This document shows positions 104 through 31,486 of a DNA stretch of 32,706 nucleotides, piece after piece. Every line of letters starts with the position of its first letter. Position 1 is the first letter of the stretch. The DNA lies in the IMG/VR virus record IMGVR_UViG_3300049215_000776, positions 1 through 32,706 of that record. One strand, written 5' to 3'. Source of the stretch: a virus. The translations under genes were made by a program, and so were the position numbers. The notes below the pieces were generated by a model. That model was given only the letters and a program-made list of their open reading frames with translations. It was not told where the DNA came from and did no database searches.

Positions 104-3100
104 CTATAAGAACGTCGCGCGCACGACCTGCGTCGGCAGCGGCAATGGCCAACTGAATAAGCAGAGGTGGTCGGTGGCCCAAATGCAAATCAGCGGAATG
201 GACGGGTTAAGGGCTCTCACGTACTCCATCCTCCACGGACAACCGCCGTTGAACCATGGCACCAGGTACGCCGTCGCGGTTACGGGCCAACTGCCAACCG
301 TCACGGGGAACGCGATCGCCGCTTGCGCATTCGTGAGGTTCCGGTACGTCGATCCCCAGGAAAGGGCCTCCATCTTCAGGCGGTCGAGCCCTGAGCCTGA
401 TTGAGCCAAATACTGTGACGGCAGATTGACGGCCCGATTCAGTCGTCCGCCCTGCGGGTACGGAACGTCCGGCGTGTAATAGCACGTCGCGAAGTTCACG
501 TCGTACGGCCACAACAGCTCGAACTTCGCGCCGGAGTACGCTGCGAGCACCGTGGTCCGGATGGAATCGATGTTATTCTTAATCCGGCTAGCGAGAAAGT
601 TTGCGTCCGCTGAGCCGTTGACGGTCGGATCGTCATCCTGGGTGTAGAACGCGGCCAGGGATCTGCCAAGCGCAGTTACAGCGGCCTGAGCTGTACAAGC
701 GTCATAGTAAGCCATGCCGCCGCCGCTGCAGGTTCCGGTGCCGCCGACATAATTCCCGTTCCCGCTTGAACCGTTGAGAGTGAAGTGGGTCGCGTCGGTA
801 ACAGTGATCGTTTGGTCCCCGTTCGCTGCCGTGTTGCCTTGGATGCCGGCGAGGATCGCGCTTTGGCCCGTGGTCAAGCCGTGCGGGCTGACCGTCCCGA
901 TCGAGATCGGCGAAGTCCAACTGGCGAATCCCACCGCGAGGTTCTGGACCGCGCTGAAGAACCACCACAGAAATTCACCGAACTGGAGCCATGGCGTCAT
1001 ACCGGCGGTGCTCAGTATCCCGGCCGCCTGTTTGAAGCAAGCCGCCAGGTATGGCGTCACCGTGGAGGGATTGAACGTGCATTGCGTAGTTTGGAGGTCG
1101 ATGAGCGCTGCGTCTCCCGCGCCGGGCGTGTGGCCACCCGAGATCAGCGTGGTGAGCTGGTAGTGGTTTGCGTCCGTGACGGTGATCGCCCAGACGCCGG
1201 ATTGCGTTGAACTCGAAATGTGAACCGTGTTTCCGGTGATGTAGCCGTGCCCGGTCTGCTGGATCGTGATTAGGCTGGACCCGCTGACCGACTCGACGAA
1301 TCCGGCACCCCAACTTCCGAAGCCGGTATCGGTAAGGACCTGGTTGCCGTTCGCGAATCGCTGCGCCCAAGCGCCAGTGGCGGTGTTCACATCCGGCGGT
1401 GCGAGCAGTTCCTGGGAGAACGCGACCGTCATCGTCTGGCCAGCCGCTTGGACCTGTGCGCAGAAGTCGGCCAGATAGTCCGTGAACGCCCGGTTAAGCG
1501 GCTGCGACTGCGACGCGTCGACCCGCCATACGCCCTCGTTGCCGGCCTTAATGTCGCCGCTGGTCGTGATCGATCCCGTTGATGGATTCGCGCCGTTCGC
1601 GCCCGTGCCCGCCGCGTAGCTCGTGAACAGGTTGAAGCCAGTCACGGGGCTGAGCGTCGTGATCGTCAACTGGCCCGTGCCTGTCTTTGATGCCGAGATT
1701 CCGACGAACAGCGTGTTGATCGCGTTGACGAACCGCTGCGCGAGCGTGTCCACGGTGTCGGTCGGATAGACCGCCGCGCCGAACGCGGTGCCGAGGCCAT
1801 CACCGTAGCTGTTCCCGCCGACCTGCAGAAACATCGCGTCGCCATCGCCAAAAAGTGATCCGAGATTGAATCCGCTGGACCCAGCAGAAATGCTGACGAT
1901 GGTCTGGTGGAAACTTCCGCCCGAACGCACGCGTTTCAGCGCGAAGAAGACGCCGGAGTAGAAGTCGATGTCACCCGCGAATCCGGCCTTGCTCAGAATC
2001 CAGAAGGCGCGCGCGGGTGCGATGGCGTAGGTTTGGGCGGTATCGAAATCGCAAGCGCAGTTGACGTTCGGGTACGTTGTGGCGGGCGATTGCACGTCCG
2101 AGAGGACGGCGGCCTGCAAGTAATCGAAGTAGCAACTGGTGCCGGTGGAGAGCGAGTTGTGCGTGCTGGACACCGTAAGGACCACCACGTGGGTCCCGGG
2201 CGCTACGCTCGGGGCGATGAGGCGACGTGTGGAAATCGGCGAGGTAGCGTCAGCATACGTATCGATCGTCGGCTGCGCCATGCCATCGAGCGTGGCCGTC
2301 AACTCGCCACTTGCGGACGAGAGCGACGTGCCGAGGTACAGATTGTGTGTGTACTGGCACGAGTAGGTGACCGCCACGTGATCGGTCGGATTCGACGATT
2401 GTCGCGCGAAGCCGCGGAAGTAGAAGCCCACCTGCTCGGTCCAGCCGGCGCCATTGAAACTCGCCCAAAAGTCACGACTCCCGACGGTCACGCTGCCCGG
2501 CCCTGCGATTTTGAGCGGTAAGACACTGCTGGGATCGGACAGCGTCCAGTTGGTGAAAACCGCGCTCCAGGTGCTCTGCTGGTAGGAGACCAGTGCGGGG
2601 TTGACGGAACCGGAATCGTAATTCAGCGCGGGCGCGAAGGTGAGCCATGCTTGGCGCAGCGAGTCGATTCCGCTGGCCGTGAAGTCGACGCGGAAATGCA
2701 CTGACGACGGATCCGCACCACCAGTCATCTTGGATGCACCTGCTGGCGTCAGGTACGCTGTCGAGGTCTTGTGCATCTCCAGCAGCTCGATGGAGTTGCC
2801 GTCGCGTCCACCTCCGGGCGCGAGATAGTTGACTCCTGTTTGGGTGCCAGCAGATGTCGTCAGGGTGGCCGATGTGGGCGATGTCACCGACGCGATGGCG
2901 TACTGTGCATCATTAATAAGGATGGGATCGCCGGCTTGCGATCCCAGGAAGTTCTGGCCGGAGGCGAACGACACCGACGTGCCCGAGGTGTTGACGATGC
3001 CATACCGTGCGGCGTAAACGGTGAAGCTCGCGCCGCTCACGGTCGCCATCAGCGCAATCGTGGGATTGATGCTGGCCCAGTTCGTGCCGTTGATCTGTGC

Positions 3101-3922
3101 CGCTAATTGCGCGGCGATGAACGGGCATGCGCCCTGCGATTCGATGAGGGTGCCAGGGCCATTGCCATCGGACGCCGAGCAACTGATGCTCGCGCCGCTG
3201 TTCAATCGCGCCGTGACGATCACGTTGTTGGCGCTCACAGACGCAGTCGCGTTGGGATCATTGGCTGCGTTAATCGCGGCTGCGAGCGCAATGGCGATGT
3301 CGCCGGAGCCGTCGGTCGAAAGCTGAACATGGGAGTACGTGTTGGCTCCGATGGTGATGGTGTGGTTGTAGCCCGTTCCAAGGAAATTGAAGAACCCGAA
3401 CGTCACTGTTGATGGACCGGATGAGAGCGGAGTCGAGACCAGATAATCGTAAACGAGGTTGCTCAAATAGACGAGTTGCACGCGGTCATCAATCGCGGCC
3501 GTGCCGTTGACCGTGAACGTCTGCGAAGCCCCGGCCATGCCGGTGGCAGCCGTCGCCATTGGTTGGAGCGAGATGGTGCCGGGCGTTTCGGACTTGGTGA
3601 TGTAGCTGAGCGCGCCCCATGGAACCGATTGAAACTTTCGACTGACGGGATTCTGCGCGTTGGTGATCGCCAGGTCGAAGTCGAGCGTGACACCGGCGAG
3701 CGAGAAATCGGGTAGGTACTTGGTGGTGAAGAGATGACCGAACTGGTCGTCGGCATCGAACAGCACCAGCACCACGAAATCGGCCTGATCGCTGAAGATG
3801 CCGCTGACAGCGAAGCCCGAGGCGGATGCGTTGTTCAGAGACGCGGCGCACCCACGACGGTCGAAACCACGCAGGTACATCGTGCGGTGCGGTTCCAGTT
3901 TGGAAATTGCTTCGGTGGGCAC
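104..3922 (-). CDS. Tail tip protein with beta domains and a barrel-like C-terminus
   Basis: A 1272-residue protein. Long beta-rich regions (for example ITIGANTYSHVQLSTDGSGD) precede two short FCCH-like domains (about residues 880-935, GHGYITGNTVHISSSTQSG, and 1005-1062, SPHGLTTGQSAILAG). The C-terminal part has helix-strand alternation, including AFSQELLAPPDV, WLQFGEFLWWFFS and YTQDDDPTVN, then IKNNIDSIRTTVLAAYSGAK and FELLWPYDVN, resembling a TIM-barrel glycosidase-like fold; catalytic residues are not certain. It ends with DHLCLFSWPLPLPT. The GTG start follows AGGA five bases upstream. It lies after the hub gene and probably recognises or digests the host surface. The +1 frame after its stop stays open to base 7 with protein-like sequence. 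Confidence 0.75.
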   Translation of the reverse strand: MPTEAISKLEPHRTMYLRGFDRRGCAASLNNASASGFAVSGIFSDQADFVVLVLFDADDQFGHLFTTKYLPDFSLAGVTLDFDLAITNAQNPVSRKFQSVPWGALSYITKSETPGTISLQPMATAATGMAGASQTFTVNGTAAIDDRVQLVYLSNLVYDYLVSTPLSSGPSTVTFGFFNFLGTGYNHTITIGANTYSHVQLSTDGSGDIAIALAAAINAANDPNATASVSANNVIVTARLNSGASISCSASDGNGPGTLIESQGACPFIAAQLAAQINGTNWASINPTIALMATVSGASFTVYAARYGIVNTSGTSVSFASGQNFLGSQAGDPILINDAQYAIASVTSPTSATLTTSAGTQTGVNYLAPGGGRDGNSIELLEMHKTSTAYLTPAGASKMTGGADPSSVHFRVDFTASGIDSLRQAWLTFAPALNYDSGSVNPALVSYQQSTWSAVFTNWTLSDPSSVLPLKIAGPGSVTVGSRDFWASFNGAGWTEQVGFYFRGFARQSSNPTDHVAVTYSCQYTHNLYLGTSLSSASGELTATLDGMAQPTIDTYADATSPISTRRLIAPSVAPGTHVVVLTVSSTHNSLSTGTSCYFDYLQAAVLSDVQSPATTYPNVNCACDFDTAQTYAIAPARAFWILSKAGFAGDIDFYSGVFFALKRVRSGGSFHQTIVSISAGSSGFNLGSLFGDGDAMFLQVGGNSYGDGLGTAFGAAVYPTDTVDTLAQRFVNAINTLFVGISASKTGTGQLTITTLSPVTGFNLFTSYAAGTGANGANPSTGSITTSGDIKAGNEGVWRVDASQSQPLNRAFTDYLADFCAQVQAAGQTMTVAFSQELLAPPDVNTATGAWAQRFANGNQVLTDTGFGSWGAGFVESVSGSSLITIQQTGHGYITGNTVHISSSTQSGVWAITVTDANHYQLTTLISGGHTPGAGDAALIDLQTTQCTFNPSTVTPYLAACFKQAAGILSTAGMTPWLQFGEFLWWFFSAVQNLAVGFASWTSPISIGTVSPHGLTTGQSAILAGIQGNTAANGDQTITVTDATHFTLNGSSGNGNYVGGTGTCSGGGMAYYDACTAQAAVTALGRSLAAFYTQDDDPTVNGSADANFLASRIKNNIDSIRTTVLAAYSGAKFELLWPYDVNFATCYYTPDVPYPQGGRLNRAVNLPSQYLAQSGSGLDRLKMEALSWGSTYRNLTNAQAAIAFPVTVGSWPVTATAYLVPWFNGGCPWRMEYVRALNPSIPLICIWATDHLCLFSWPLPLPTQVVRATFL

Positions 3923-3928
3923 AGGGTC

Positions 3929-6900
3929 CTATGAAAGCGCGACGGTGAGGTCCGATCCGGGAAACGTCGTGCCGACGGCGGTGAGATTTATGATGACCGG
4001 CGTCTCCGGGCCGATTGCCGGCGTGCCAGTAGCGGAGCCGACCGTGGTGCCCGCTGCGATCGTCACCGTGAACAACAACGTGGTTCCGGCATAAACCTCG
4101 ACCACGAGGTCTGCGCCGATCGGTGCCTGCTTCACCATGCACGTCACGCCGTTCTGTAACGACACGGTGGAGGTATAGAAAGCTGCTGGGCCAAGGTCGC
4201 TCCCAATCGCGAGCGTGCCGGGAATCGAGATCTTCATCTCGCCCGAGGGCGCGCCGACTTCGCCGTAGATCCAGTCCTCGCGGAAAGGCTGGTCGCCGTC
4301 CGGAGATTCGTTCCCGTTCACGTCCACGGTGAAGCCGGCAATCAGCATTGGCTGGTCGATGAAGTTTGCAGTCGGCACCGAGAGGCTGACCGGCGTGAGC
4401 GGGTTCGCGTTGTCGATGCTGGTCGAATCGGCTTGGAAAGACCAGGCGGGTGCCTCAACGATCCATATCGAGGTATCGTCCATGAGCAGTGGCGGCTGAA
4501 AGCTCAACTGCGTCGATGTGTTGGCCGTGATCGTGCTTGGCGTTTGGCCGCGTCCTGTGCCCGCGATCACGCGAATCAGATTGCCGACCTCCGCGCTTAC
4601 CGCCAGGCCGCCGTAACTGTTCGCGATGTTCTGGTAGCCGGGGTCGGTGACTTGGGTGACGGCGGTAGGTGTGCTTGACAGGCCCGACGCCTGGTTGCGA
4701 ATCACCACTGCGTCGCCGATGTTCACAGTCCCCGTGGGATCTCGGTCCAACGTGATCGTCCCAGTGGTAGGCACGAACGCTGTGATGTTGAAGCTCGCGA
4801 ACGGTGTGCTGCCGTTCGGCCTGCCGATTACGGAAAGAATGCGGCCGACGGGACTGAACGGCGTGGAGGAAGTATCGACCAGTTCGGAACAAACCAGGGT
4901 GTTCGTCGAGACGGTGGTAACGGCGACGCCGGCAACGCCAGAGTGCACCAAGAGCTTGGCTTTGATCCGAACCTTGGCGACGTACGGCGACGGCAGCGCC
5001 CAAGTCGAGCGCACTACCGGGCCGCCGAACGTGATCGACGCTGGTGTGTAGGTGTTACCGCTGCCAGCCGTCAACGTGCCGGTTGCCTGTTCGCAGATCA
5101 GGTCGGGTTGCGTTCCAACGAACAGGACATAAGAAGCGAGTCCGGAGACTGCAGGCCACGTGATGTCGTTGAGCGTGAACGAGCCGCCGGCCGCCGTTCC
5201 GGTTCCAATGATCGCGATATTCGAGGGCGCGGAAGGAAGCCCGTTCGAATCAATCGCGCAGATGGCGACCCACAAGGTGACGTCAGCCGCCAATGATCCG
5301 CCCGTCGCGCTCTGCGAAATCGATCCGATTCCCGGCGCGCCTGCACCCGTGGCGCTGAACTCGTTCACCGGAAGCTTGCCGGTGACGATAAGACTCGCCA
5401 GCGCGCTGCCGTCGGCGAGCGTCGTGTATTCCTGATCGGAATCGAAAGTCCACTCGCTGGGGAATAGCGCATCGCTCGAAAATGCTTGAACCTGGTATGG
5501 AGCCCACACCGGCCCGAGCGGAATCGGATAGAACAGCGCGGGCAGAGGCGCAGGCACCACATCCATCGGCTTCGGTCCGACGTCAAGGTCGTACATGGAA
5601 GCGGTGACTGTCTGCGCCTCGATCTGCACCGACCAATCCTTCTTCAGGCTCCAGCGCTGGATGCGGAAGCACATCGTGACGACCTTGAACGCCAAGCCGG
5701 TTCCGCTGGGAGGCGCCGGAGACGTGGTGATGGTGGAACCGTCGCTGGCGACTGCCGTAATTGTTACCTGCGAACCGCCGATCACGATCTCTTTATTGAT
5801 GAGTTCGGTGTCTCCGGTCGCGGTCCCGGCGTAAGTCCACGGATCACCGCTGACCCACGTGGCCGTGCTGCCGGAGACATTGCACGTACCGTGGACGCCA
5901 GGAATGTCCGGGTGCGTCATCGATACCACTTGCCCGACTTCGTTTCCGAGGCCGAGCAATGTCGTCTGCCACGCGGCCGTGCGCGCATCCCGCCATTCCG
6001 CCGGAGTCACGCCGCCGATCTCTTCGCGTGTGCGCGTGGCCGCGATGCGCAACGATTGGCTTAGCGTTGAACATCCCACCGAATGCATCTGGGTGGTCAA
6101 CGGAGATCCCGCACGCCCGTAATAAGCCGCGTGGCTCTTGTCGCAATACTCGCCCGTGTTCGCCTGATACTGATAGGCAACATCGGCGAACGAAATCACC
6201 AGGTGCTCGAAGCCAGCCTGGATCGGCGTCAGCCGAAGGGTCTGATAGAGAGAGTTGGCGAGCGTATACGCATCCACCGCGCTCGCGTTGATGCGGCAGC
6301 CGAGCTTCAACTGCCCGAATTCCCAGGTGTAGAATCCCAGGCAGCAGTTCAGGACCTCGGTGAGCCAGTCGCGGAATGGCTTCTGGGCACTGATGATTCC
6401 CTGAAACTGAAACTGCGTCTCGGTGCCGGTTCCGAGGATGGCTGCGACTTGGGTGGCAGCGACCTCGGCCGCGCCGCTCCCATCGCCCACAATTAGCGAC
6501 GGCAGTACGAACATGGCGAGTTGATCGGACGACGCCGCGCCGGTTCCGCCAGCGGGGTTCGACCCGGTCGAAGGGTCACCGTACAAGCCCATCGCGCGCA
6601 GAAGCATGTTTACGGCAATCCAAAATGGATTGATCAGTCCCTGGACCGCTGTCCGGTTGCCACTCTGGTCCCAGGTCCAGCCCCACATCCCGTAATCGAT
6701 CGGGACCGTCATCTGGTGCTGGTCAGGAGTGCTCGGCTGAATCGTGGTGGACTTGACGATGCGGATCTCGCAAGCCGCCGTGCCCGCCGCGTAGACGTTC
6801 GGCTCCCAGACCTGAGGCGATCCTTGTCCGAGCGAGAAATAGTCGGTGGTCGAGACCGCTGGATCGCTGCCGCTGATGTACCGCAGCCCGTATCCAGGCT

Positions 6901-8314
6901 GGTATTTCGTGATGTTCAGGTTGCCGTTAACCTTCAGTCCTTGCCAAAGGTAGCCGTCCACCATCGGAGCGACCACGTATCGGTAGCCGTCCGCGTTGGT
7001 GACGACCATCGACGCTGTGAATCCGCCAAGCGGTCCCGCGCTCAAGATACCGAGCGAGTCCGCATAGCCCGATTCATCGCGGTAATCCACCATCAACGCG
7101 GTCGCCAGGAACGCGAAGAGGGGGTTGCCGCCGCTGTTGCACCATATCTCCGGAAGCGCGAGCCCCCAGACTGTGTCCGAGATGATCGACGTGGCCGTGA
7201 CGACGTTGCGGCCGAAGCCGAGAAAACCGGTGGAATCGTCCTTGATCACGACGCCCTGCGGGTCGGCCTGGTGCCCACCGAAGTAAGGAGCCATGCCGTG
7301 CGCCTGGCAGCCATTCGGCGATTCGAGGTAGTAATCGCAGGATGTAGAGCTTCCGCCGCTGCCATGGGCCGCGTAGGGACAGTTCACGCCATCGTTGAAG
7401 GTCTTCCAGCACTGGCGCGAGACCTGCCGCTCCGGGTACTGGTTCATGATCTGGAAGAAGCCGTCGGAGCAGGTCACCGGGAAGATCGGTGTACCGTCGC
7501 TGGTGAAGTTCTGAATGACGCCTTTCCAAAGCTGGAGCAGAATCCCGGAGTTGACGTGGAAGAGGCACAGGTCGATCTCGGCGTACTTCAGGTCCGTGTC
7601 GTTTGCGAGCTGCGTCATCACGCGGTCGCCGTTGCCGAACGTGAAGCGGACGTTGTCCGAGGTGCCCTTGATGTCCTGCGAGATCAGAACGTCGGAACCC
7701 GGCTCGCCGATCCCGATCAGGCGCGGCAGGTAAAGCTGCCCACCTACCGTGACGCGCCGGTCGGAGAGATAGATGTCCGCAACCGCGGATTCCCGCACGC
7801 GGATGTGGATAAGCGGGACAATCTGCTGCACCTCGGAGAGGAGCGCCGTGGAGAGCGCGGTCGAGGGGAAGCGCGTGCAGGTGGAGTTGATCGCGTAGGA
7901 GGGCGCCGCTGTCGGATCGACGACCTCGATTAGATTCAGTCCTACCTGCGCGGCGTTGCGCAGGTACTCGAACGAGATTGGCATCTGCTCGAAGGTCACC
8001 AGCACGCCGGTGGTGGTTCCGTCGGGATTGGGGACCGTGTAAGTGAACGCCTGCCACGGCCCATGCATGGACTCCCAGAAATCCCGAAGCTGCTTTCCTT
8101 CAGCCCAGTTGAGGTTCGGGTGCTTGAACTGAAACTTGCGCGGGCCGACGCCGACGTAATACCGTTGCTCCTGCTTGGCGTCGAGGCTGCCGAAGCGGTG
8201 CACGATCACCGGGCGCTCGACGGAGAAGCCGAACGGGTACTGCGTGGTGAGCGGGAATGTCTGGCCGGAGTTGATCACCGTTGGGACGGTGATGCGGCCG
8301 ATCGTGTCGGGCAT
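3929..8314 (-). CDS. Large tail hub protein (gpM/gpL/gpJ-like fusion)
   Basis: A 1461-residue tail hub. Residues about 1-135 look like a distal-tail or gpM-type domain (FKHPNLNWAEGKQLRDFWES). Residues about 140-365 match the gpL/DUF2163 class and carry a Cys/His cluster near 301-345 (QCWKTFNDGVNCPYAAHG, then CDYYLESPNGCQAHG), recalling the iron-sulfur site of lambda gpL. The middle (about 400-850) resembles the gpJ/TipJ hub (for example AQKPFRDWLTEVLNCCLGFY). The C-terminal third is built of Gly/Thr-rich beta domains. It should form the tail-end ring and spike holding the tape measure and contact the host. Fusion of functions separate in lambda is inferred from the domain order. A 6-base gap leads to the tip gene. 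Confidence 0.85.
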   Translation of the reverse strand: MPDTIGRITVPTVINSGQTFPLTTQYPFGFSVERPVIVHRFGSLDAKQEQRYYVGVGPRKFQFKHPNLNWAEGKQLRDFWESMHGPWQAFTYTVPNPDGTTTGVLVTFEQMPISFEYLRNAAQVGLNLIEVVDPTAAPSYAINSTCTRFPSTALSTALLSEVQQIVPLIHIRVRESAVADIYLSDRRVTVGGQLYLPRLIGIGEPGSDVLISQDIKGTSDNVRFTFGNGDRVMTQLANDTDLKYAEIDLCLFHVNSGILLQLWKGVIQNFTSDGTPIFPVTCSDGFFQIMNQYPERQVSRQCWKTFNDGVNCPYAAHGSGGSSTSCDYYLESPNGCQAHGMAPYFGGHQADPQGVVIKDDSTGFLGFGRNVVTATSIISDTVWGLALPEIWCNSGGNPLFAFLATALMVDYRDESGYADSLGILSAGPLGGFTASMVVTNADGYRYVVAPMVDGYLWQGLKVNGNLNITKYQPGYGLRYISGSDPAVSTTDYFSLGQGSPQVWEPNVYAAGTAACEIRIVKSTTIQPSTPDQHQMTVPIDYGMWGWTWDQSGNRTAVQGLINPFWIAVNMLLRAMGLYGDPSTGSNPAGGTGAASSDQLAMFVLPSLIVGDGSGAAEVAATQVAAILGTGTETQFQFQGIISAQKPFRDWLTEVLNCCLGFYTWEFGQLKLGCRINASAVDAYTLANSLYQTLRLTPIQAGFEHLVISFADVAYQYQANTGEYCDKSHAAYYGRAGSPLTTQMHSVGCSTLSQSLRIAATRTREEIGGVTPAEWRDARTAAWQTTLLGLGNEVGQVVSMTHPDIPGVHGTCNVSGSTATWVSGDPWTYAGTATGDTELINKEIVIGGSQVTITAVASDGSTITTSPAPPSGTGLAFKVVTMCFRIQRWSLKKDWSVQIEAQTVTASMYDLDVGPKPMDVVPAPLPALFYPIPLGPVWAPYQVQAFSSDALFPSEWTFDSDQEYTTLADGSALASLIVTGKLPVNEFSATGAGAPGIGSISQSATGGSLAADVTLWVAICAIDSNGLPSAPSNIAIIGTGTAAGGSFTLNDITWPAVSGLASYVLFVGTQPDLICEQATGTLTAGSGNTYTPASITFGGPVVRSTWALPSPYVAKVRIKAKLLVHSGVAGVAVTTVSTNTLVCSELVDTSSTPFSPVGRILSVIGRPNGSTPFASFNITAFVPTTGTITLDRDPTGTVNIGDAVVIRNQASGLSSTPTAVTQVTDPGYQNIANSYGGLAVSAEVGNLIRVIAGTGRGQTPSTITANTSTQLSFQPPLLMDDTSIWIVEAPAWSFQADSTSIDNANPLTPVSLSVPTANFIDQPMLIAGFTVDVNGNESPDGDQPFREDWIYGEVGAPSGEMKISIPGTLAIGSDLGPAAFYTSTVSLQNGVTCMVKQAPIGADLVVEVYAGTTLLFTVTIAAGTTVGSATGTPAIGPETPVIINLTAVGTTFPGSDLTVALS

Positions 8315-8396
8315 GGCTGATGGATTAAGCGAGCGCCGCCTGGTGTGGGCGTCGCTTCGCTACGCTGCGGTACGCTTGTTTTGCTAGGAGGCTGGC

Positions 8397-9494
8397 GTGA
8401 GGTTGAAGGTGTTCATCAGTTGGTCAGGCGAGAGAAGCAAGCTCCTTGCGCGCGAGATTACGTGGTGGCTGCCTCGGGTGCTCTCCTCTATCCGACCCTG
8501 GATGTCCGAGAAAGACATCCAGAAGGGCGATCGCTGGAGCCAGCAGATCGGGAGCCAGCTCGAAGGCCATCGTATTGGCATCGTCTGTGTAACGCCGGAA
8601 AATATGACATCCCCCTGGTTGCTTTTCGAGTCAGGCGCTCTGTCGAAGGCAGTTGGAGACGCTAAGGTTTGTCCGCTTCTGTTGGGCATGCGAGCAAGTG
8701 ACGTTGAGGGGCCACTAAATCAGTTCCAGGCGACAGTGTTCGATCGAGACGAGATGTTCGCATTGGCAGCGAGCATGAATAAAGAGCTGGGGGATGACCG
8801 CGTTGAAGAACAAGTACTTCGGGACTCGTTCGACCGGTTTTGGCCTGAATTGGAAAACAGAGTAGAGGCCATCTCGAAGATTGCGCTTTCGCCCCAATCC
8901 GTCCCTCTAGTCGTTCGCACGTTTGCGAAATATGGGTTTCCAGAACCTCAAGTTGGCAGCGCGGTGTACTTTTCTGCCGGCTTCGAGAGTCACGCAGTTT
9001 ATGAAACCGCCTGCTCAATTGCTACTCAGCGTCTTTTCGTCTTCGGCCGGAAAAACAGAAAGCTATTCGACAAGGAACACGCGGACTTCATCCGAAGTCT
9101 TCCAGACCGAATTGCTCGCCATTTTGATTTTCGCTGCTTGTTTTTGGACCCCAATGCTCCCGCTCATGTCCTGTCGGCGGCACACCACGACGATGACTTC
9201 CCCGAACAACTGAGGGCCGCGATACGAAATGCTATTTCGGGCATGGTCAGCGCCGGGCTTGACCCAGATCGGCACTGCCGAACGTATGCCATCCAACGCT
9301 CGGTCACTTCCATCGTGGTGGATGACGCAATCCTGTATACGCAGATTCGGTTTGCACGGAACGGAAAGGCAACCCAACTTACAAAGTGCCCGTTCACGGT
9401 GATTAATGTACAGTCGCCGGTAGGACAAGAGATGACGACAGAATTCGCGGAACTTTGGGAAAGTGGACTGCCGTTGTCGTCTTCTGGGATCTGA
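8397..9494 (+). CDS. TIR-domain protein with a C-terminal sensor-like domain (cargo)
   Basis: A 365-residue protein. Residues about 1-160 are a TIR domain of the bacterial TIR_2 type: KVFISWSGERSKLLA, the DIQKGDRWSQQIGSQLE helix, the strand RIGIVCVTPENM, and SPWLLFESGALSK, with Glu78 at the position of the NAD-cleaving residue. Bacterial TIR enzymes deplete NAD or make signalling nucleotides during anti-phage defence. Residues about 165-365 (AVYFSAGFE, LFVFGRKNRKLFDKEHADFI, DFRCLFLDPNAPAHVL) form a separate domain resembling PLD-fold-like sensors but without a clear HKD active site. The GTG start has AGGAGG five bases upstream. It lies on the plus strand between two tail genes, with lower GC than they have. 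Confidence 0.85.
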   Translation: MRLKVFISWSGERSKLLAREITWWLPRVLSSIRPWMSEKDIQKGDRWSQQIGSQLEGHRIGIVCVTPENMTSPWLLFESGALSKAVGDAKVCPLLLGMRASDVEGPLNQFQATVFDRDEMFALAASMNKELGDDRVEEQVLRDSFDRFWPELENRVEAISKIALSPQSVPLVVRTFAKYGFPEPQVGSAVYFSAGFESHAVYETACSIATQRLFVFGRKNRKLFDKEHADFIRSLPDRIARHFDFRCLFLDPNAPAHVLSAAHHDDDFPEQLRAAIRNAISGMVSAGLDPDRHCRTYAIQRSVTSIVVDDAILYTQIRFARNGKATQLTKCPFTVINVQSPVGQEMTTEFAELWESGLPLSSSGI

Positions 9495-9565
9495 ATCCGA
9501 CGGAGTTCCAATTTTGCAAAGGTGTGAATCCGTCTCTCATTCATCGGAAGACTAGTACCGGCGTG

Positions 9566-9982
9566 CTACGCCACCTCGACGAGTTCCAGCCCCTGCACGT
9601 TGGTCCGCGCGACATCAGTCGCCTGCGCCCAGTTGCCGCGAAACACCACCGTGACGCGGCCCTGCGTGTTGTTCCCGCTGGAGTCGTAGTTGCTGCCGAT
9701 CTGCTGGCCTGACGCCACGTCGAATGGATTGTAGAAGGCGAACGGCGTCATCCCGCCATCCTGCGAACCCCAGAAGCTGTACAACGCCGAGACTAGAGAT
9801 GCGGTCAAACGTTTGCTGAGCCGGAACGTCCGCTGAGACGTCTGCGCGAGTTGCGATCGCTGGACGGTCCCGTCGTGATACTGGTTCTGAAGCTGCACGT
9901 ATTCGCGCAGCTCCGTAAACGCGGTGCACAGCGAGCCCGGCATGACGCCGCTCGGCACAGCATCTTGAATATTTCCAGGCAT
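9566..9982 (-). CDS. Distal-tail-like protein
   Basis: A 138-residue protein two bases after the fibre gene. It has MPGNIQDAVPSGVMPGSLCT, then FRLSKRLTASLVSALYSFWG and PFAFYNPFDVASG, and closes with VVFRGNWAQATDVARTNVQG and LELVEVA. The tyrosine/tryptophan-rich pattern, with a trailing beta strand, resembles distal-tail (gpM/DUF2460-type) domains and also the N-terminal domain of the hub protein encoded next. It may form the ring joining tube and tip. The ATG at 9982 has a weak ribosome-binding site and probably depends on coupling with the upstream stop. Confidence 0.55.
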   Translation of the reverse strand: MPGNIQDAVPSGVMPGSLCTAFTELREYVQLQNQYHDGTVQRSQLAQTSQRTFRLSKRLTASLVSALYSFWGSQDGGMTPFAFYNPFDVASGQQIGSNYDSSGNNTQGRVTVVFRGNWAQATDVARTNVQGLELVEVA

Positions 9983-9984
9983 GC

Positions 9985-12129
9985 TTACTGGACCCTGAAG
10001 TTCTGTTCGTACTTGGCCCAAACAATCCACAAGGTGCCTGTATTCGTATCAGCCGCGTTGCTGCCACGCCGATACTGACGCGTGATCACGGCTCCCGTTG
10101 GAATCTGACACGTCGAGTTTATGCCGAGGCTGTACGGCGGGGCGAACTCGTTGATCGACGAACTACTGATCGACGAACTACTGCCGCCCGACGTCACCGG
10201 AAGCGCGCTCGAACCTGACAGCATTGCCGGAAAGGTCGGCCCACTGGAAATGCTGAACGGCGCGCAGGCCATAAAAGCGATGAAGTCGACGTTGCCGCCG
10301 GAAGCATCTGTGTATCCACCCAAGGACAAGGTCGTCGAAAGGTACGCCACGGGAGGCTCAACCAGCATCGAAACGTAGACGTCGCCGCTTCCGTGGGCCA
10401 GCGGCACCGCAGCCATCGCGGTACCTCCGACCGAGATGCATTGCATCGCCGCGCTTGACCCCATGAAGTGCGGGCTCGGTTGAGGAGTCGCGCCGACCGC
10501 AGAGCAGTATCCGAGGGGGTAAATCTGAGTCGGGTTCCCGTTCACCATGCTGGGGACGCCCGTGACACAGGTCAAACCGGAATTGATGGCGCCGCAGTTC
10601 GTCTGGACGTTCGTGTACGAGTTCGTCATGTCGGTGACCGGCAGCCCGCCGATCGAATCGAACAAAATTCCATACTGGAGAAACGTATTGCCGTTGACGT
10701 TGGGCGAGGCCATGATGTAATTCCCGCTGTAGCCGGCACCGAGGAGGTGGCCAAAACTTACGCCTTTGGTGACGTAGATCGCGGCCGACTTCTGTGGGTT
10801 GCTTCCATCGACGCCGACGCCCTCGATCCGGTTGCCAATAATCGTTAGGGCGTCCAGATAAAGCGTTAGATAGAGCGCGGAGTCCGTCGTGCCCGAGATG
10901 ATGTTGTCCGCGATGAACAAGCCGTCGCTGGAATCAGGAGACGAGTTGCTCACAACGACTGCCCGGCCCTTCACGTTCGCGAATCTGTTTCCCTGGACGA
11001 TCAGACCGATGATATTCGTCGCCGAGATCACCGAGGTTTCACTCGTCTGATTCGTATAGTTTCCGTCCGCGAACACATCCCTCATCGCGAAGTCGGTAGT
11101 CGAGTTCAGGGTCAACATCGCCGTGTTCAGTCCATTCTTCACGGTGAGCTTGCTTCGAGCCTTTAGGCCCATGATGGTCCAGCCCGTCTTGCCGGAGATC
11201 GAAAGCCCGCTTTGCAGCGTGTACGTGTTCGGACCCATCATGAAGGTCACATTCTGTGCGGACCCGGCAGCACTGAAAGCGCCTGAGAAACAGGTGTCGT
11301 CATAGGTCCCCGGCACACTGCAATACTGATCGATCCAGGTTACAACTGAACCCTTAGGTAGCGCTCCGAGATTCGACAGCGCGGTAGCTGGACTGCCCAC
11401 GTCGGACAGATTGTTCGCCGCGACGAGCTTCGCATTGAGCTGGGCCTGCGCATCGCTCGTCAGGTTGGCGACGTATCCGAAAGCCGTATTCCCTACGCTG
11501 CCCCCTCCGATGTTGGGGGCTGGGATTCCTGTGGGTAGTTGGCCGACTGAAGCTGCACCCGCAAGCTGATTGAAGTTGTAATCATTCGCGGCGGGTGTGA
11601 TCGCGCCGGTTCTGCTGTTGAAAGAGGTCACTCCGGTTGCCGGCGGATTGCACCACACCGCCACGCCGCTGCTGTCGCAGATAAGCTGCCCATTCGTGGC
11701 GCCCTGAGTGGAGAGCTGCGAGAGCGCGACGGTCGTCGTCGGGCCGGGCGTGTAAAGCGTCGTGACTTGCACGATGGTACAAGTTCCGGATGAGCACCGG
11801 GACGAGGGGAGTGTCGGAACCGACCACACGCTCGTCGAAGTCTGCCCGTTCGAGACTATGTTCACGGCGTAAACGATGGCCGGGCTCGCGTGGTCCGTGG
11901 GCGCGAGCTGAATGTTGACCACGCCATTCGTGATCGGAAAGGCGCGCGCGCCGCGCGCGATCGGAACGCCTCCGACTGAGAATGCCGCATTGGTCACGAT
12001 GAGGTTGCCATCCATCAGCGACCCATCGACGTTGTAGAGCGTGTCTTGGATCGTGGTCAGCACGGGTTGCGCCCGGCACAGCGGGGCGCACAACAGCCAG
12101 AACGCAAGAAGGAGAAGCAGTTTCCGCAT
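9985..12129 (-). CDS. Tail fibre with beta-helix domain and an N-terminal signal peptide
   Basis: A 714-residue protein. The first 20 residues (MRKLLLLLAFWLLCAPLCRA) are a textbook Sec signal peptide, with probable cleavage before QPVL. Residues about 175-255 contain fibre-like motifs such as NNLSDVGSPATALSNLGAL, common in phage tail fibres. Residues about 270-510 form a right-handed beta-helix pattern of short polar repeats (for example RVIGNRIEGVG-like IIGNRIEGVGVDG), typical of receptor-binding or polysaccharide-degrading tailspikes. A Ser-rich linker with a 15-base tandem repeat and a C-terminal beta domain ending EQNFRVQ follow. AAGGA lies before the ATG. A Sec signal on a virion fibre is unexpected, since virions assemble in the cytoplasm. 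Confidence 0.8.
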   Translation of the reverse strand: MRKLLLLLAFWLLCAPLCRAQPVLTTIQDTLYNVDGSLMDGNLIVTNAAFSVGGVPIARGARAFPITNGVVNIQLAPTDHASPAIVYAVNIVSNGQTSTSVWSVPTLPSSRCSSGTCTIVQVTTLYTPGPTTTVALSQLSTQGATNGQLICDSSGVAVWCNPPATGVTSFNSRTGAITPAANDYNFNQLAGAASVGQLPTGIPAPNIGGGSVGNTAFGYVANLTSDAQAQLNAKLVAANNLSDVGSPATALSNLGALPKGSVVTWIDQYCSVPGTYDDTCFSGAFSAAGSAQNVTFMMGPNTYTLQSGLSISGKTGWTIMGLKARSKLTVKNGLNTAMLTLNSTTDFAMRDVFADGNYTNQTSETSVISATNIIGLIVQGNRFANVKGRAVVVSNSSPDSSDGLFIADNIISGTTDSALYLTLYLDALTIIGNRIEGVGVDGSNPQKSAAIYVTKGVSFGHLLGAGYSGNYIMASPNVNGNTFLQYGILFDSIGGLPVTDMTNSYTNVQTNCGAINSGLTCVTGVPSMVNGNPTQIYPLGYCSAVGATPQPSPHFMGSSAAMQCISVGGTAMAAVPLAHGSGDVYVSMLVEPPVAYLSTTLSLGGYTDASGGNVDFIAFMACAPFSISSGPTFPAMLSGSSALPVTSGGSSSSISSSSINEFAPPYSLGINSTCQIPTGAVITRQYRRGSNAADTNTGTLWIVWAKYEQNFRVQ
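10153..10182. repeat. Tandem 15-base repeat in the fibre gene
   Basis: GATCGACGAACTACT occurs twice head to tail (10153-10167 and 10168-10182). It keeps the reading frame and encodes the repeated SSSSI of a serine-rich linker in the tail fibre. Unit gain or loss would change linker length by five residues without a frameshift. Confidence 0.7.
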
Positions 12130-16109: not shown

Positions 16110-16568
16110 CTACGCTGCCTTGAGCATCACTAAGGGACGCGCCTGGAACGCCGCGAGTACCACCCTGCGATCGTGCGGCGACACACCCCACTGCGCCTCG
16201 CGGCGGTTGTTGAAGGCGGCGATCTGCGACGCCGTTTGCCGCCGGCCCGACAGAGCTTCGTCCAGAAATCCAATCGCCGCGCGATTCTCGTTTGCGGTGA
16301 GTACCTTGAGGCACCGTAGTGTGTGTCCGCTCCAGGTCCAGTCACGAATGGGCTTCAGTCCACGAGCGGATTTGTAATCGGGATACCCACGCCGGCCCGA
16401 TAAACCCGGCTTCAGTGGCGCCGCCGCCTGATCGTAAATATTCTGTCCACTCTGGATACGCGTTCGGATCGAGTTCGCGAGAACCTGCGCGAAGCCCTGC
16501 ATCTCGGTGGCCGTGTAGGGCGAATAGACGAAGCGAGCACTCTTGATGACGGTTTGGAATCTGGCCAT
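16110..16568 (-). CDS. Putative virion morphogenesis/minor tail protein
   Basis: A 152-residue basic protein between the tail-assembly genes and the tape measure. It starts MARFQTVIKSARFVYSPYTA, has an N-terminal helix (TEMQGFAQVLANSIRTRIQSG) shown in part, a Gly/Tyr-rich KPGLSGRRGYPDYKSARGLK segment, and a C-terminal GRRQTASQIAAFNNRREAQW block. This layout recalls phage tail-completion or virion-morphogenesis proteins (P2 gpS or HK97 gp10 classes), where a tyrosine/arginine-rich loop packs on the tail. The assignment is by analogy. The ATG at 16568 has GAAGG nine bases upstream; extensions to 16640 are less likely. The stop is one base from the tape-measure ATG. Confidence 0.55.
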   Translation of the reverse strand: MARFQTVIKSARFVYSPYTATEMQGFAQVLANSIRTRIQSGQNIYDQAAAPLKPGLSGRRGYPDYKSARGLKPIRDWTWSGHTLRCLKVLTANENRAAIGFLDEALSGRRQTASQIAAFNNRREAQWGVSPHDRRVVLAAFQARPLVMLKAA

Positions 16569-16703
16569 GATGACCTTCGACAGGATGCTGCTGCCGATAG
16601 ACCTCGATAGGGAGTTAACCTGCCAAAAGTGCGCCCACACACCAAGATGCCGTGTCTCTCGGGACTCTGGCCGCCCGTTTTGTAACGTGTGCTTTATCCG
16701 GTG

Positions 16704-16734
16704 TTAACTGACCGGAGAGGGGGCTACGTATTAT
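16704..16734 (+). promoter_or_regulatory. Candidate promoter of the orphan plus-strand gene
   Basis: TTAACT (16704-16709, four of six to the -35 consensus) is followed after 19 bases by TATTAT (16729-16734, five of six to -10). The start point would fall about 20 bases before the GTG at 16759, with AAAGGAGC between. The 19-base spacer is long, so strength is uncertain, but the AT-rich -10 stands out in this GC-rich DNA. Confidence 0.4.
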
Positions 16735-16758
16735 CATCTCAAGCAAAGGAGCAGAACG

Positions 16759-17856
16759 GTGTCCACGTTACCGATGTTCTCTGCTGAGCAGGATCAGCAA
16801 TATTTCCTTGAGTTATTAAACTCGGACTTGGCCCAGTTGGCTCTGGGGTACGAAGCCTTTGAAGCCCAAGTCGAAATAGCTGTCTTCGCTCTGTTTTTAC
16901 ACGAAATCGAGCAAGGCGCCACGCTGCGGGGCGACCAGGTACAGATTGACGGCGTACCATATCGCCTGAAGCTTGACGAATTAGGCGCAGACCGCTGCCT
17001 CCGTCTCCATCTTTTTCCAGTGGGGGTCCCGAAACCGCAGCTAGAACACTCAGCTTTGAGCATCGAACATTTTGGCAGAGTGCGCACGATAGACATCGAA
17101 TGGCCAGCAAGCATATTGAGAAGGCACCAAGCGCTGCCAGATCGTCTTAGGCAACGGATCCTGAGCTTCTACACTATGCTCCAAGAACTGCTGACTTCAA
17201 AGTATTCTCAACTGACCGATTCCGCTCTCCAGAGCCTTTACGTCGTTCTCAACATCCACTGTGAGGGTAAAAGCCAACTGGTCGAGCGCGCATGGTTTAC
17301 CGTCACGGACGCTCGGACGGCCAAGTTCCAATATTTTTTTGATCGAGTTCGCGTAACTCAAGCTATTAAGATTCTCGTCGAGGCCCAGTTCTATGAATTC
17401 AGCCCATTCGAACTGGTCGTCTGTCTTTTAGCAGACGAAGCGACTGACACATTTTGGCACCTTCGTCAGAATTTCGACTACAAGAGCGCCTTTGCCAGCC
17501 TCCACTTTAGCGAGCTGACAAGCCAGATCACCGAGTCTACGCATTGGCAGGCCGAGAAAGCTCTCTACCAAGAAGCCGACCTCGCAGCGCGTGAGATTTG
17601 CCAGTGTGCCGGGGAATCGCTTTTGATCAACTGCCCGCTTGAGATCGCAGCCGACATGGAAGAAATCGTGACGCGAGCGAAGCCGATGCTGACCGCCCAG
17701 TTCGCCAACATTTTGAAACCGTATCGAGCATTTCGAGAATCGGTGGCCTCTGTAGCCGCGAGGGTTCACAAGGTGTCTGAACATGGAGGCCTTCGGGATT
17801 TTGCTTCTGACGTCATCGCAAAGCTTGGTAAAGAGCTCCTGAAGCCGGGTCAATAG
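16759..17856 (+). CDS. Orphan cargo gene in opposite orientation to the tail operon
   Basis: I do not recognise this 365-residue protein. It has no signal peptide or transmembrane segment and appears alpha-helical with mixed beta segments. Visible blocks are MSTLPMFSAEQDQQYFLELL, a DADR-free beta region around 60-105, RLRQRILSFYTMLQELLTSK, and a long C-terminal helix with EIAADMEEIVTRAKPMLTA. No catalytic signature of nucleases, kinases, TIR, HEPN or PLD is evident. The GTG at 16759 has AAAGGAGC seven bases upstream and a promoter-like pair just ahead. It points against the late operon and its base composition is clearly lower in GC than its neighbours, both hallmarks of moron genes expressed from a lysogen. 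It may be a defence or superinfection-exclusion factor (inference). Confidence 0.75.
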   Translation: MSTLPMFSAEQDQQYFLELLNSDLAQLALGYEAFEAQVEIAVFALFLHEIEQGATLRGDQVQIDGVPYRLKLDELGADRCLRLHLFPVGVPKPQLEHSALSIEHFGRVRTIDIEWPASILRRHQALPDRLRQRILSFYTMLQELLTSKYSQLTDSALQSLYVVLNIHCEGKSQLVERAWFTVTDARTAKFQYFFDRVRVTQAIKILVEAQFYEFSPFELVVCLLADEATDTFWHLRQNFDYKSAFASLHFSELTSQITESTHWQAEKALYQEADLAAREICQCAGESLLINCPLEIAADMEEIVTRAKPMLTAQFANILKPYRAFRESVASVAARVHKVSEHGGLRDFASDVIAKLGKELLKPGQ

Positions 17857-17876
17857 CCCGCCCACGCGACGTGCAT

Positions 17877-17895
17877 ACGTGCGATGGGCGCACGT
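17877..17895. repeat. Inverted repeat 3' of the orphan gene
   Basis: ACGTGCG (17877-17883), a 5-base loop ATGGG, and CGCACGT (17889-17895) form a perfect 7-bp stem 20 bases after the stop of the plus-strand orphan gene. No T-run follows, so it is a weak terminator candidate or a protein-binding site. The surrounding gap (17857-17995) also contains a short minus-strand frame that is too brief to call. Confidence 0.35.
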
Positions 17896-17995
17896 GGCAA
17901 CTCAAAGTTCATCCGGGCGGGCCAAGACGCCGGAAGCCATGCTCGCCATGAATCGTCCCATCGTCGAGAAAGTCACCAAACCGGAAGTCCATCCG

Positions 17996-30062: not shown

Positions 30063-31400
30063 TCATGCCGCGATCCCCACGCGTTCGACTTTTACCTGCT
30101 CGAACGTCCGACCATTGCTATCGAGCGTTGCTTCAAGGCCCGTGAGCCGCTGCCATCGCTCGACCACCACATCGACGTACTTCGGATCAAGCTCCAGTCC
30201 GTAGCAGACGCGCTCAGTCAGCTCCGCCGCAGCGAGCGTGGTGCCGCTGCCGAGGAACGGCTCATACACCAGCTCGCCCTGCTTGGTGTGATTCAGAATC
30301 GGGCGCCGCATCAGCGCGACGGGTTTCTGCGTGGGATGATCGAGCTTCTCCTCGTCCGAGCCACCCATGATGAACTTCGGCGACGGCGAATCCCAGATGG
30401 TGGAATTCTCGCCGGGCTTGCCGTACCACGGCGCGTTCTTCTTTCGGACATACCAACAAGGCTCATGTTGGAACCAGTAGTGCGTGCGCGTCAGCACCGT
30501 GCGGCCCTTGTTCCAGATGATCTGCTGGTGGTGCAGAAACCCGATTCGCAACAAGCCGTCGAGGACCTCGCGCGTGAACTTCGACGCGTGCCAGATGTAG
30601 CCCACCTCGAGGCTCGGCACCAGCGCGAACGCCTCCGACCAGTCAGCGCGCGTGTCGCCAGAGATCTCTGTCTGTGTGTGGCCTTCGGTGCGATGCTTCA
30701 TATAGCTCGACTCGGCAGGTCCGCAACCGTTCAGGCCGGCTCGATCTCGCCACTCGGAATCCAACTCAATTCCGTAAGGCGGGTCTGTGATCATCAGAAA
30801 CGGTTTGCGATCTCCGAGCAACCGGGCGACCGCCTCAGGGCTAGTTGAATCCGCACAGAGGACGCGGTGCTCACCGCAGAGCCACAGGTCGCCAGGTCGG
30901 GTGACCGGCACGACCGGCGGCAACGAAACCAGGTCCTCTTCTCCGCTGGTCTCCTCCTCCGGGAACAGATAGGCGTTCAACTCGTCCTGATCGAACCCGG
31001 TCAACGCCAGATCGAAATTGCTATCCAGTTCCTGGATGCTCTGCAGCTCCGGCCCGATCAGATCCAAATCCCACGTCGCCTCATCGTGGGACCGATTGTC
31101 CATCAGCCGGTACGCCTTCACCTGGCCGGGCGTGAGATCGAGCGCGACGTGAACGGGAACCTCGGTCATTGCCATCGACTGCGCCGCCAGTAGCCGCACG
31201 TGCCCAACGATAATCACACCCTCGGAATCGACCACGATAGGCTGCCGCCACCCGAATGCTCGAATCGACGAAGCGACCTTCTCGACCGCCGACGCAGGAA
31301 TCACCCTGGCGTTGTTCGGATACGGCGTGACGCGGCCAATTGGCCACCACTCGACGGCGAACGCCGAGGACTGCGGTTTGATTTGTTTGGAGCTGCGCAT
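30063..31400 (-). CDS. ParB-like domain fused to a DNA methyltransferase
   Basis: This 445-residue protein combines an N-terminal ParB/sulfiredoxin-like domain (about residues 15-100, with the family motif GHVRLLAA near 66-73) and a C-terminal amino-methyltransferase (N6-adenine or N4-cytosine). The catalytic motif DPPYG is at about 206-210, HPTQKP at 355-360, and the AdoMet-binding motif EPFLGSGTT at 380-388. Motif IV precedes motif I, the order of beta-class enzymes. No restriction endonuclease is adjacent, so it is an orphan methyltransferase, probably protecting phage DNA from host restriction or marking it for packaging or replication. The start chosen is the ATG at 31400; a longer frame begins at 31439 but would run through the direct repeats. 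The stop overlaps an ATG (ATGA) of a dubious small frame. Confidence 0.88.
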   Translation of the reverse strand: MRSSKQIKPQSSAFAVEWWPIGRVTPYPNNARVIPASAVEKVASSIRAFGWRQPIVVDSEGVIIVGHVRLLAAQSMAMTEVPVHVALDLTPGQVKAYRLMDNRSHDEATWDLDLIGPELQSIQELDSNFDLALTGFDQDELNAYLFPEEETSGEEDLVSLPPVVPVTRPGDLWLCGEHRVLCADSTSPEAVARLLGDRKPFLMITDPPYGIELDSEWRDRAGLNGCGPAESSYMKHRTEGHTQTEISGDTRADWSEAFALVPSLEVGYIWHASKFTREVLDGLLRIGFLHHQQIIWNKGRTVLTRTHYWFQHEPCWYVRKKNAPWYGKPGENSTIWDSPSPKFIMGGSDEEKLDHPTQKPVALMRRPILNHTKQGELVYEPFLGSGTTLAAAELTERVCYGLELDPKYVDVVVERWQRLTGLEATLDSNGRTFEQVKVERVGIAA

Positions 31401-31401
31401 A

Positions 31402-31486
31402 GTGACAACTTGGAAGGGGTGACAACCTGGGAAAATCAAGCCCAGTCTCGAAGAATCAGCGATTTAAATGCAGGGTGACAACCTAG
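31402..31486. repeat. Three direct repeats, GTGACAACYTRG, in the methyltransferase leader
   Basis: Plus-strand copies lie at 31402-31413, 31419-31430 and 31475-31486. Two are 17 bases apart and the third is 56 bases further. Read on the minus strand they are CYARGTTGTCAC, and two are followed by CCC. They end immediately before the methyltransferase ATG at 31400, so a regulatory protein (possibly the ParB-like domain of the methyltransferase itself) could bind here. The regulator is inference; the repeats are direct observation. Confidence 0.5.

Follow-up and report, generated by a model that had tools for sequence, protein, structure and literature searches.

A predicted TIR immune gene in a hypervariable tail-operon slot of a probable Acidobacteriota phage

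Introduction

Why should a phage carry a complete TIR-domain gene inside its tail operon, on the strand opposite to the structural genes around it? The question was raised by a sequence-only reading of an IMG/VR virus record, the whole stretch of which (32,706 bases) is referred to here as the window. That reading proposed that the gene is a moron and suggested that it could serve as a superinfection-exclusion effector. Here the gene, its active site, its relatives and the place that it occupies in related phages are described, and the explanations for its presence are weighed.

The TIR gene and its borders

The gene and the features that surround it are the following.

8397..9494, plus strand: TIR gene, 365 aa, defined by its open reading frame and by Pfam, PHROG and PADLOC profiles
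8386..8391, plus strand: AGGAGG Shine-Dalgarno sequence of the TIR gene, 5 nt ahead of the GTG, read from the sequence
9566..9982, minus strand: distal-tail-type gene with its stop at 9566, upstream border of slot S1; 52-94% identical in relatives
3929..8314, minus strand: hub-type tail gene, 1461 aa, with its ATG at 8314, bordering slot S1 on its downstream side in the direction of transcription; relatives at 71 IMG/VR loci
8315..9565, no strand: cargo slot S1, from the hub ATG to the distal stop codon, defined by comparison with the relative L010 and by empty junctions

The TIR gene is an intact open reading frame of 365 codons with a GTG start and no internal stop, and its GC content (0.53-0.54 at 8501-9500) is lower than that of the surroundings (about 0.62). 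Both flanking tail genes lie on the minus strand, opposite to it; the names distal and hub come from the sequence-only reading and from gene order, neither protein being named by a Pfam or PHROG profile. The initial description of an intact gene with a strong ribosome-binding site and low GC, antisense to the distal-tail and hub genes, was confirmed. In both halves of the gene its own frame obtains a higher codon score than any of the other five, which makes it likely that the C-terminal half is coding too. The opposite strand implies that the gene has its own promoter; a search for sigma-70 promoters upstream of it gave no match, nor did a search for terminators on its strand.

TIR domain and predicted active site

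8397..8882, plus strand: TIR domain, about residues 1-162, from profiles, AF2, Foldseek and alignment to AbTir
8628-8630, plus strand: catalytic-type glutamate E78, from alignment to AbTir and conservation
8889..9494, plus strand: orphan C-terminal region of ~200 residues, putative sensor or oligomerisation part; without matches, AF2 pLDDT ~32

The Pfam TIR_2 model matches the window protein with E=9.5e-12 and 45.9 bits (cut-off 28), PHROG 13899 with E=3e-60, and the PADLOC model TIR-TM with 2e-60, the last over residues 3-162 only, covering positions 1-160 of the 293 in the profile. The AF2 model of the domain has pLDDT values mostly of 82-98, lower around residues 41-50, and Foldseek matched it to SPARTA TIR-APAZ, plant TIRs, SpbK (9phb) and AbTir. 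Among the residues invariant in 65 viral homologues are F6, S8, W9, S10, G44, W74, E78 and G80, and the SWSG and W..FE.GAL motifs are invariant or nearly so in the same set. AbTir, an NADase of known structure, served as the reference for E78: the family profile places this residue on the glutamate of the W..(F/Y)E motif (W..YE in AbTir, PDB), the catalytic residue of AbTir. The earlier expectation that the residues needed for catalysis are retained holds for E78, which is present, invariant and aligned to the AbTir Glu, and the protein is a predicted NADase in which E78 would cleave NAD+.

The two halves of the protein, for which separate homologue searches had been recommended, gave different outcomes. 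Residues 1-160 have many TIR relatives, but none could be recognised for the C-terminal ~200 residues: among IMG/VR patterns, phage records, PDB entries and the C-termini of the homologues, nothing matches them. AF2 applied to the C-terminal half by itself gave a pLDDT of about 32, which is not usable. Since this extra domain of 200 residues is an orphan, absent from other family members, the sensing role assigned to it is a guess. Several candidates for it were rejected. An apparent relative in L002 proved to be an unrelated protein that matches by chance in a single short peptide; a likeness to DUF5919/PLD-like domains seen by eye gave no match with the Pfam model; and weak matches in Myxococcota are attributed to chance because the best of them is, by sequence, a DNA polymerase III alpha subunit. 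The label TIR-TM was likewise rejected as a sign of a transmembrane protein, no TM segment being found in the window protein or in the family C-termini.

Relatives of the TIR domain and known systems

The TIR family is widespread, being found in 125 IMG/VR stretches and in 23 of the 396 host-phylum genomes sampled; about 15 of these genomes match strongly, and the strong matches are confined to about residues 1-175. Two distinct phages match in phage records, the lambdoid coliphage mEp390, where the gene lies on the opposite strand between the holin genes and Q, and the P2-like phage AC1, where it lies at 1776-2723, near replication gene A. The AC1 TIR protein is 37% identical to that of the window over residues 3-162 (E 4e-30). 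The AC1 locus comprises a TIR protein and transmembrane proteins in the Q-A hotspot of a P2-like phage; AC1 lysogens resist lambda and LF82_P8, and the cloned three-gene locus reproduces the resistance in E. coli and blocks P2 too (PMC9122126). Because this locus blocks phages in experiments, the family of this TIR domain includes a member whose defence role has been tested. The PADLOC model TIR-TM is probably the AC1 TIR + TM system of Rousset et al. 2022.

The window gene resembles the AC1 locus in its homologous TIR domain and in being carried between core phage genes (PMC9122126). However, its slot lies within the tail operon rather than between Q and A and holds one gene, without adjacent TM partner genes, and the C-terminal half of its protein is unrelated to that of the AC1 protein. 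With TM partners absent and a different C-terminus, it is therefore not filed as an AC1-type system. The idea that the family as a whole has a conserved TM partner was also rejected, only a few members having a related TM neighbour.

In Thoeris systems, ThsB makes a cyclic ADP-ribose-type messenger for a separate effector. The window gene differs from Thoeris in that it is the sole gene in its slot, with no ThsA effector gene beside it, and the ThsB profile matches its protein with an E of 0.0037 only. It might nevertheless produce cyclic ADP-ribose as a messenger that acts on an effector encoded in the host or in another part of the phage, instead of being a stand-alone killer. Such an arrangement would agree with the AC1 homologue, which is proposed to make a cyclic ADP-ribose messenger and has TM proteins on its flanks that are suggested to be effectors switched on by the messenger (PMC9122126), and partners may lie elsewhere in most viral homologues, which have no conserved TM neighbour. 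The single gene in S1, with no ThsA-like or TM gene adjoining, and the additional C-terminal domain confined to the window protein argue against it, and we regard a messenger role of this kind as unlikely.

A stand-alone TIR effector has a precedent in SpbK of Bacillus subtilis, a single TIR NADase that causes abortive infection and is triggered by a phage structural protein (PMC12847820). The window gene is, like SpbK, a single-gene TIR, and its TIR fold matches that of SpbK (9phb); SpbK differs in being carried on ICEBs1 and in its sensor part, and the likeness is limited to the TIR fold. A precedent for the genomic setting is Tab of phage JBD26, a defence moron that lies antisense within the late operon, has its own promoter and is expressed by the prophage (PMC10884400). 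The window gene shares the antisense position within a late operon, although no promoter match precedes it, and Tab differs in its size (83 aa), in its position between terminase genes, in blocking tail assembly and in not being a TIR protein.

A cargo slot at the distal/hub junction

When the window is compared with L010 (89% identical DNA), the two sequences cease to be alike at the distal stop (9566) and become similar again at the hub ATG (8314), the DNA between these borders being unrelated and 1251 and 894 bp long, respectively. L016 and L037 have the same exact borders, at 92-93%. Where the slot is empty, the stop and start codons adjoin or overlap, as in TGATG. The distal-hub gap spans 0 to 4.7 kb in relatives; after dereplication of the hubs at 97% (n=64, including the window), and with occupation defined as an insert of at least 500 bp, S1 was occupied in 46/64, empty in 15/64 and nearly empty (150-230 bp) in 3/64. 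Its occupants are almost always different genes, 0.6-4.7 kb long, on either strand and of lower GC, mostly 0.52-0.58 in the inserts versus 0.60-0.66 in the hubs. S1 thus has the traits expected of a hotspot: a small size, two conserved borders and a high turnover of the genes between them.

The empty site in relatives, the exact junctions, the low GC, the opposite strand and the separate ribosome-binding site mark the open reading frame at 8397-9494 as a moron. The proposal made from the sequence is in this respect strongly supported: the gene is an extra one of deviant composition, absent from relatives, and an empty site exists. It had also been asked whether other phages carry the gene at the equivalent tail position; none of the 71 loci with hub relatives does, the slot being empty or filled by other cargo, which accounts for the absence without decay. 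As for the view that the tail-operon site is unusual, the location was borne out, but the site is no one-off, since it is a standing cargo slot in this phage clade.

A gene absent from all relatives found, at a slot of high turnover, could be a passing insertion without function for the phage and on its way out. Constant absence from relatives together with frame damage had been named as evidence against the moron proposal. The absence was found, but the frame is intact, the ribosome-binding site is strong and the active-site motif is conserved, and open genes fill most slots in relatives; a passing insertion is accordingly judged improbable.

Repeated distal 3' ends beside inserts were considered as a general insertion footprint and rejected, the search having found them only in L017. 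There, at ~9842-9982, the distal 3' end recurs as a diverged second copy that closes the insert and directly precedes the hub ATG, possibly the footprint of recombination with a distant phage. In L075 the tape, distal and hub segments are scrambled or repeated, and this sequence is possibly misassembled or rearranged.

What the slot holds in relatives

The 44 main S1 inserts are oriented almost evenly, 23 along and 21 against the tail genes. In inserts scanned singly, PADLOC profiles matched, among others, LmuA and LmuB in L039 (LmuB 2e-88), NsnA in L045 (5e-65), PD-T4-6 in L016 (2e-40), HEC-09 in L007 (1e-33), HEC-05/PDC-M55C in L022 and L046, and PD-Lambda-2_B in L023. Further matches were a GajB-like UvrD helicase (L035), an ankyrin protein (L050), a PD-T4-7-like protein (L042) and a TIR protein of 1138 aa (TIR-WD40, L043), which from match tallies and length would also bear WD40 repeats. 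Sixteen of the 44 distinct inserts match PADLOC at E<=0.001, 12 of them below 1e-10; this is a raw count without a background rate, in which part of the inserts were scanned singly and some models cover general enzymes, and the matches are suggestive only of a defence slot. About two thirds of the cargo has no defence-profile match. Cargo moves between phage backbones: L022 and L046 have in common cargo that is 93% identical at the protein level, a 275-aa zinc-ribbon gene of L031 and L038 is present in L081 too, and L041 has, in another slot, a gene distantly related to the HEC-05-type one.

With its differing foreign genes, many of them defence-like, S1 has the appearance of an exchangeable cargo site for weapons that phages use against each other. 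A counter-defence role, in which the TIR protein would blunt a host TIR/cADPR system as a decoy, as a sponge or by NAD+ manipulation, suits a phage-borne gene within a late operon but is very improbable, because the gene is opposite in strand to the lytic genes, its slot-mates in relatives resemble defence systems, the locus of the AC1 homologue defends (PMC9122126) and the catalytic Glu is kept, though a decoy need not keep it.

Host and lifestyle

Relatives of these phages occur in Acidobacteriota MAG contigs of up to 184 kb (Bryobacterales, Solibacteraceae, Acidobacteriia), and one short relative contig was binned as Myxococcales; the hosts are probably Acidobacteriota. A tyrosine integrase is encoded in 10 of the 22 virus records of the clade, which is therefore probably temperate; no integrase was seen on the 32.7-kb window fragment.

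Proposed role of the TIR gene

We consider it rather probable that the gene is moron cargo in a hypervariable tail-operon slot of a probably temperate, siphovirus-like phage of Acidobacteriota and encodes a TIR immune effector that works as a single gene. A defence role is supported indirectly, by homology to the AC1 protein and by the defence-like occupants of S1, and the suggestion that the lysogen expresses the gene as a superinfection-exclusion effector is plausible. The TIR gene would then be transcribed in the lysogen from its own promoter, against the late operon, and the C-terminal domain might detect an infecting phage or drive clustering of the TIR domains. E78 would subsequently cleave NAD+, leading to its depletion or to a cyclic ADP-ribose product, and this cleavage may stop the cell ahead of the spread of the competing phage, that is, by abortive infection. 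More speculatively, antisense late transcription at induction of the phage itself could switch the TIR gene off.

Further slots within the tail operon

16641..17995, no strand: cargo slot S2, upstream of the gene at 16110-16640; gap of at least 600 bp in 35/47 relatives
16759..17856, plus strand: ORF2, 365 aa, low GC, occupant of S2; best coding score of the six frames
3923..3928, no strand: slot S3, from the hub gene to the gene at 104-3922, empty in the window; gap of at least 600 bp in 14/45 relatives

Unlike S1, S2 and S3, the remaining core junctions for which many comparisons were available hardly ever vary. Cargo in S2 is mostly opposite to the tail genes (28/37, p=0.0026). ORF2 has no relatives in Pfam, PHROGs, PDB or IMG/VR patterns. 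An origin of the TIR gene and ORF2 by duplication was rejected, their sequences being unrelated and their equal size of 365 aa a matter of chance.

The slots resemble the anti-phage hotspots of P2 and P4 phages, which are loci of 1-5 kb with high turnover and diverse defence genes between two conserved genes (PMC9122126). In contrast to those hotspots, the three slots lie inside a structural operon of probable Acidobacteriota phages, and S1 reaches precisely from the stop codon of one tail gene to the start codon of the next. Its position between distal-tail and hub genes also differs from that of published hotspots beside cos or integrase. The literature searched, which covered few subscription papers, describes hotspots beside cos, integrase or repressor and single morons in late operons, and no recurrent slots within a tail operon were found in it. 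Relative to known hotspots, the differing features are the exact stop/start junction within a tail operon and the two further slots there.

A wider scenario, which we put forward tentatively and as somewhat doubtful, is that a clade of Acidobacteriota phages shuffles a very large stock of mostly undescribed single-gene defences through three dedicated tail-operon slots, the main one at the stop/start junction, with opposite-strand cargo silenced by antisense transcription at induction. Most S1 inserts have no defence-profile match, yet they stand at the position of known defence genes in relatives. If these are defence slots, they would offer a plentiful and hardly explored supply of new anti-phage systems, in phages of a soil phylum that has received little attention in this regard. 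They also raise the question of how a phage tolerates independent, often antisense immune genes inside an operon that it must transcribe throughout to make its tail.

Other genes of the window and its relatives

In S3 of the Lamassu-carrying phage (L039:14707-19748) there is a further same-strand set of genes for proteins of 467, 753 and 459 aa, of which the 753-aa one resembles HtpG at its N-terminus and a histidine kinase at its C-terminus. Between the tape measure and distal genes of the window, the minus-strand gene at 9985-12129 encodes a protein of 714 aa with a signal-peptide-like N-terminus and, by eye, beta-helix-like repeats. It is present in only ~6/65 relatives and is thus another facultative gene of the tail operon. 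The minus-strand gene at 30063-31439 encodes a ParB-like domain fused to a DNA methyltransferase and adjoins the terminase genes (PHROG matches).
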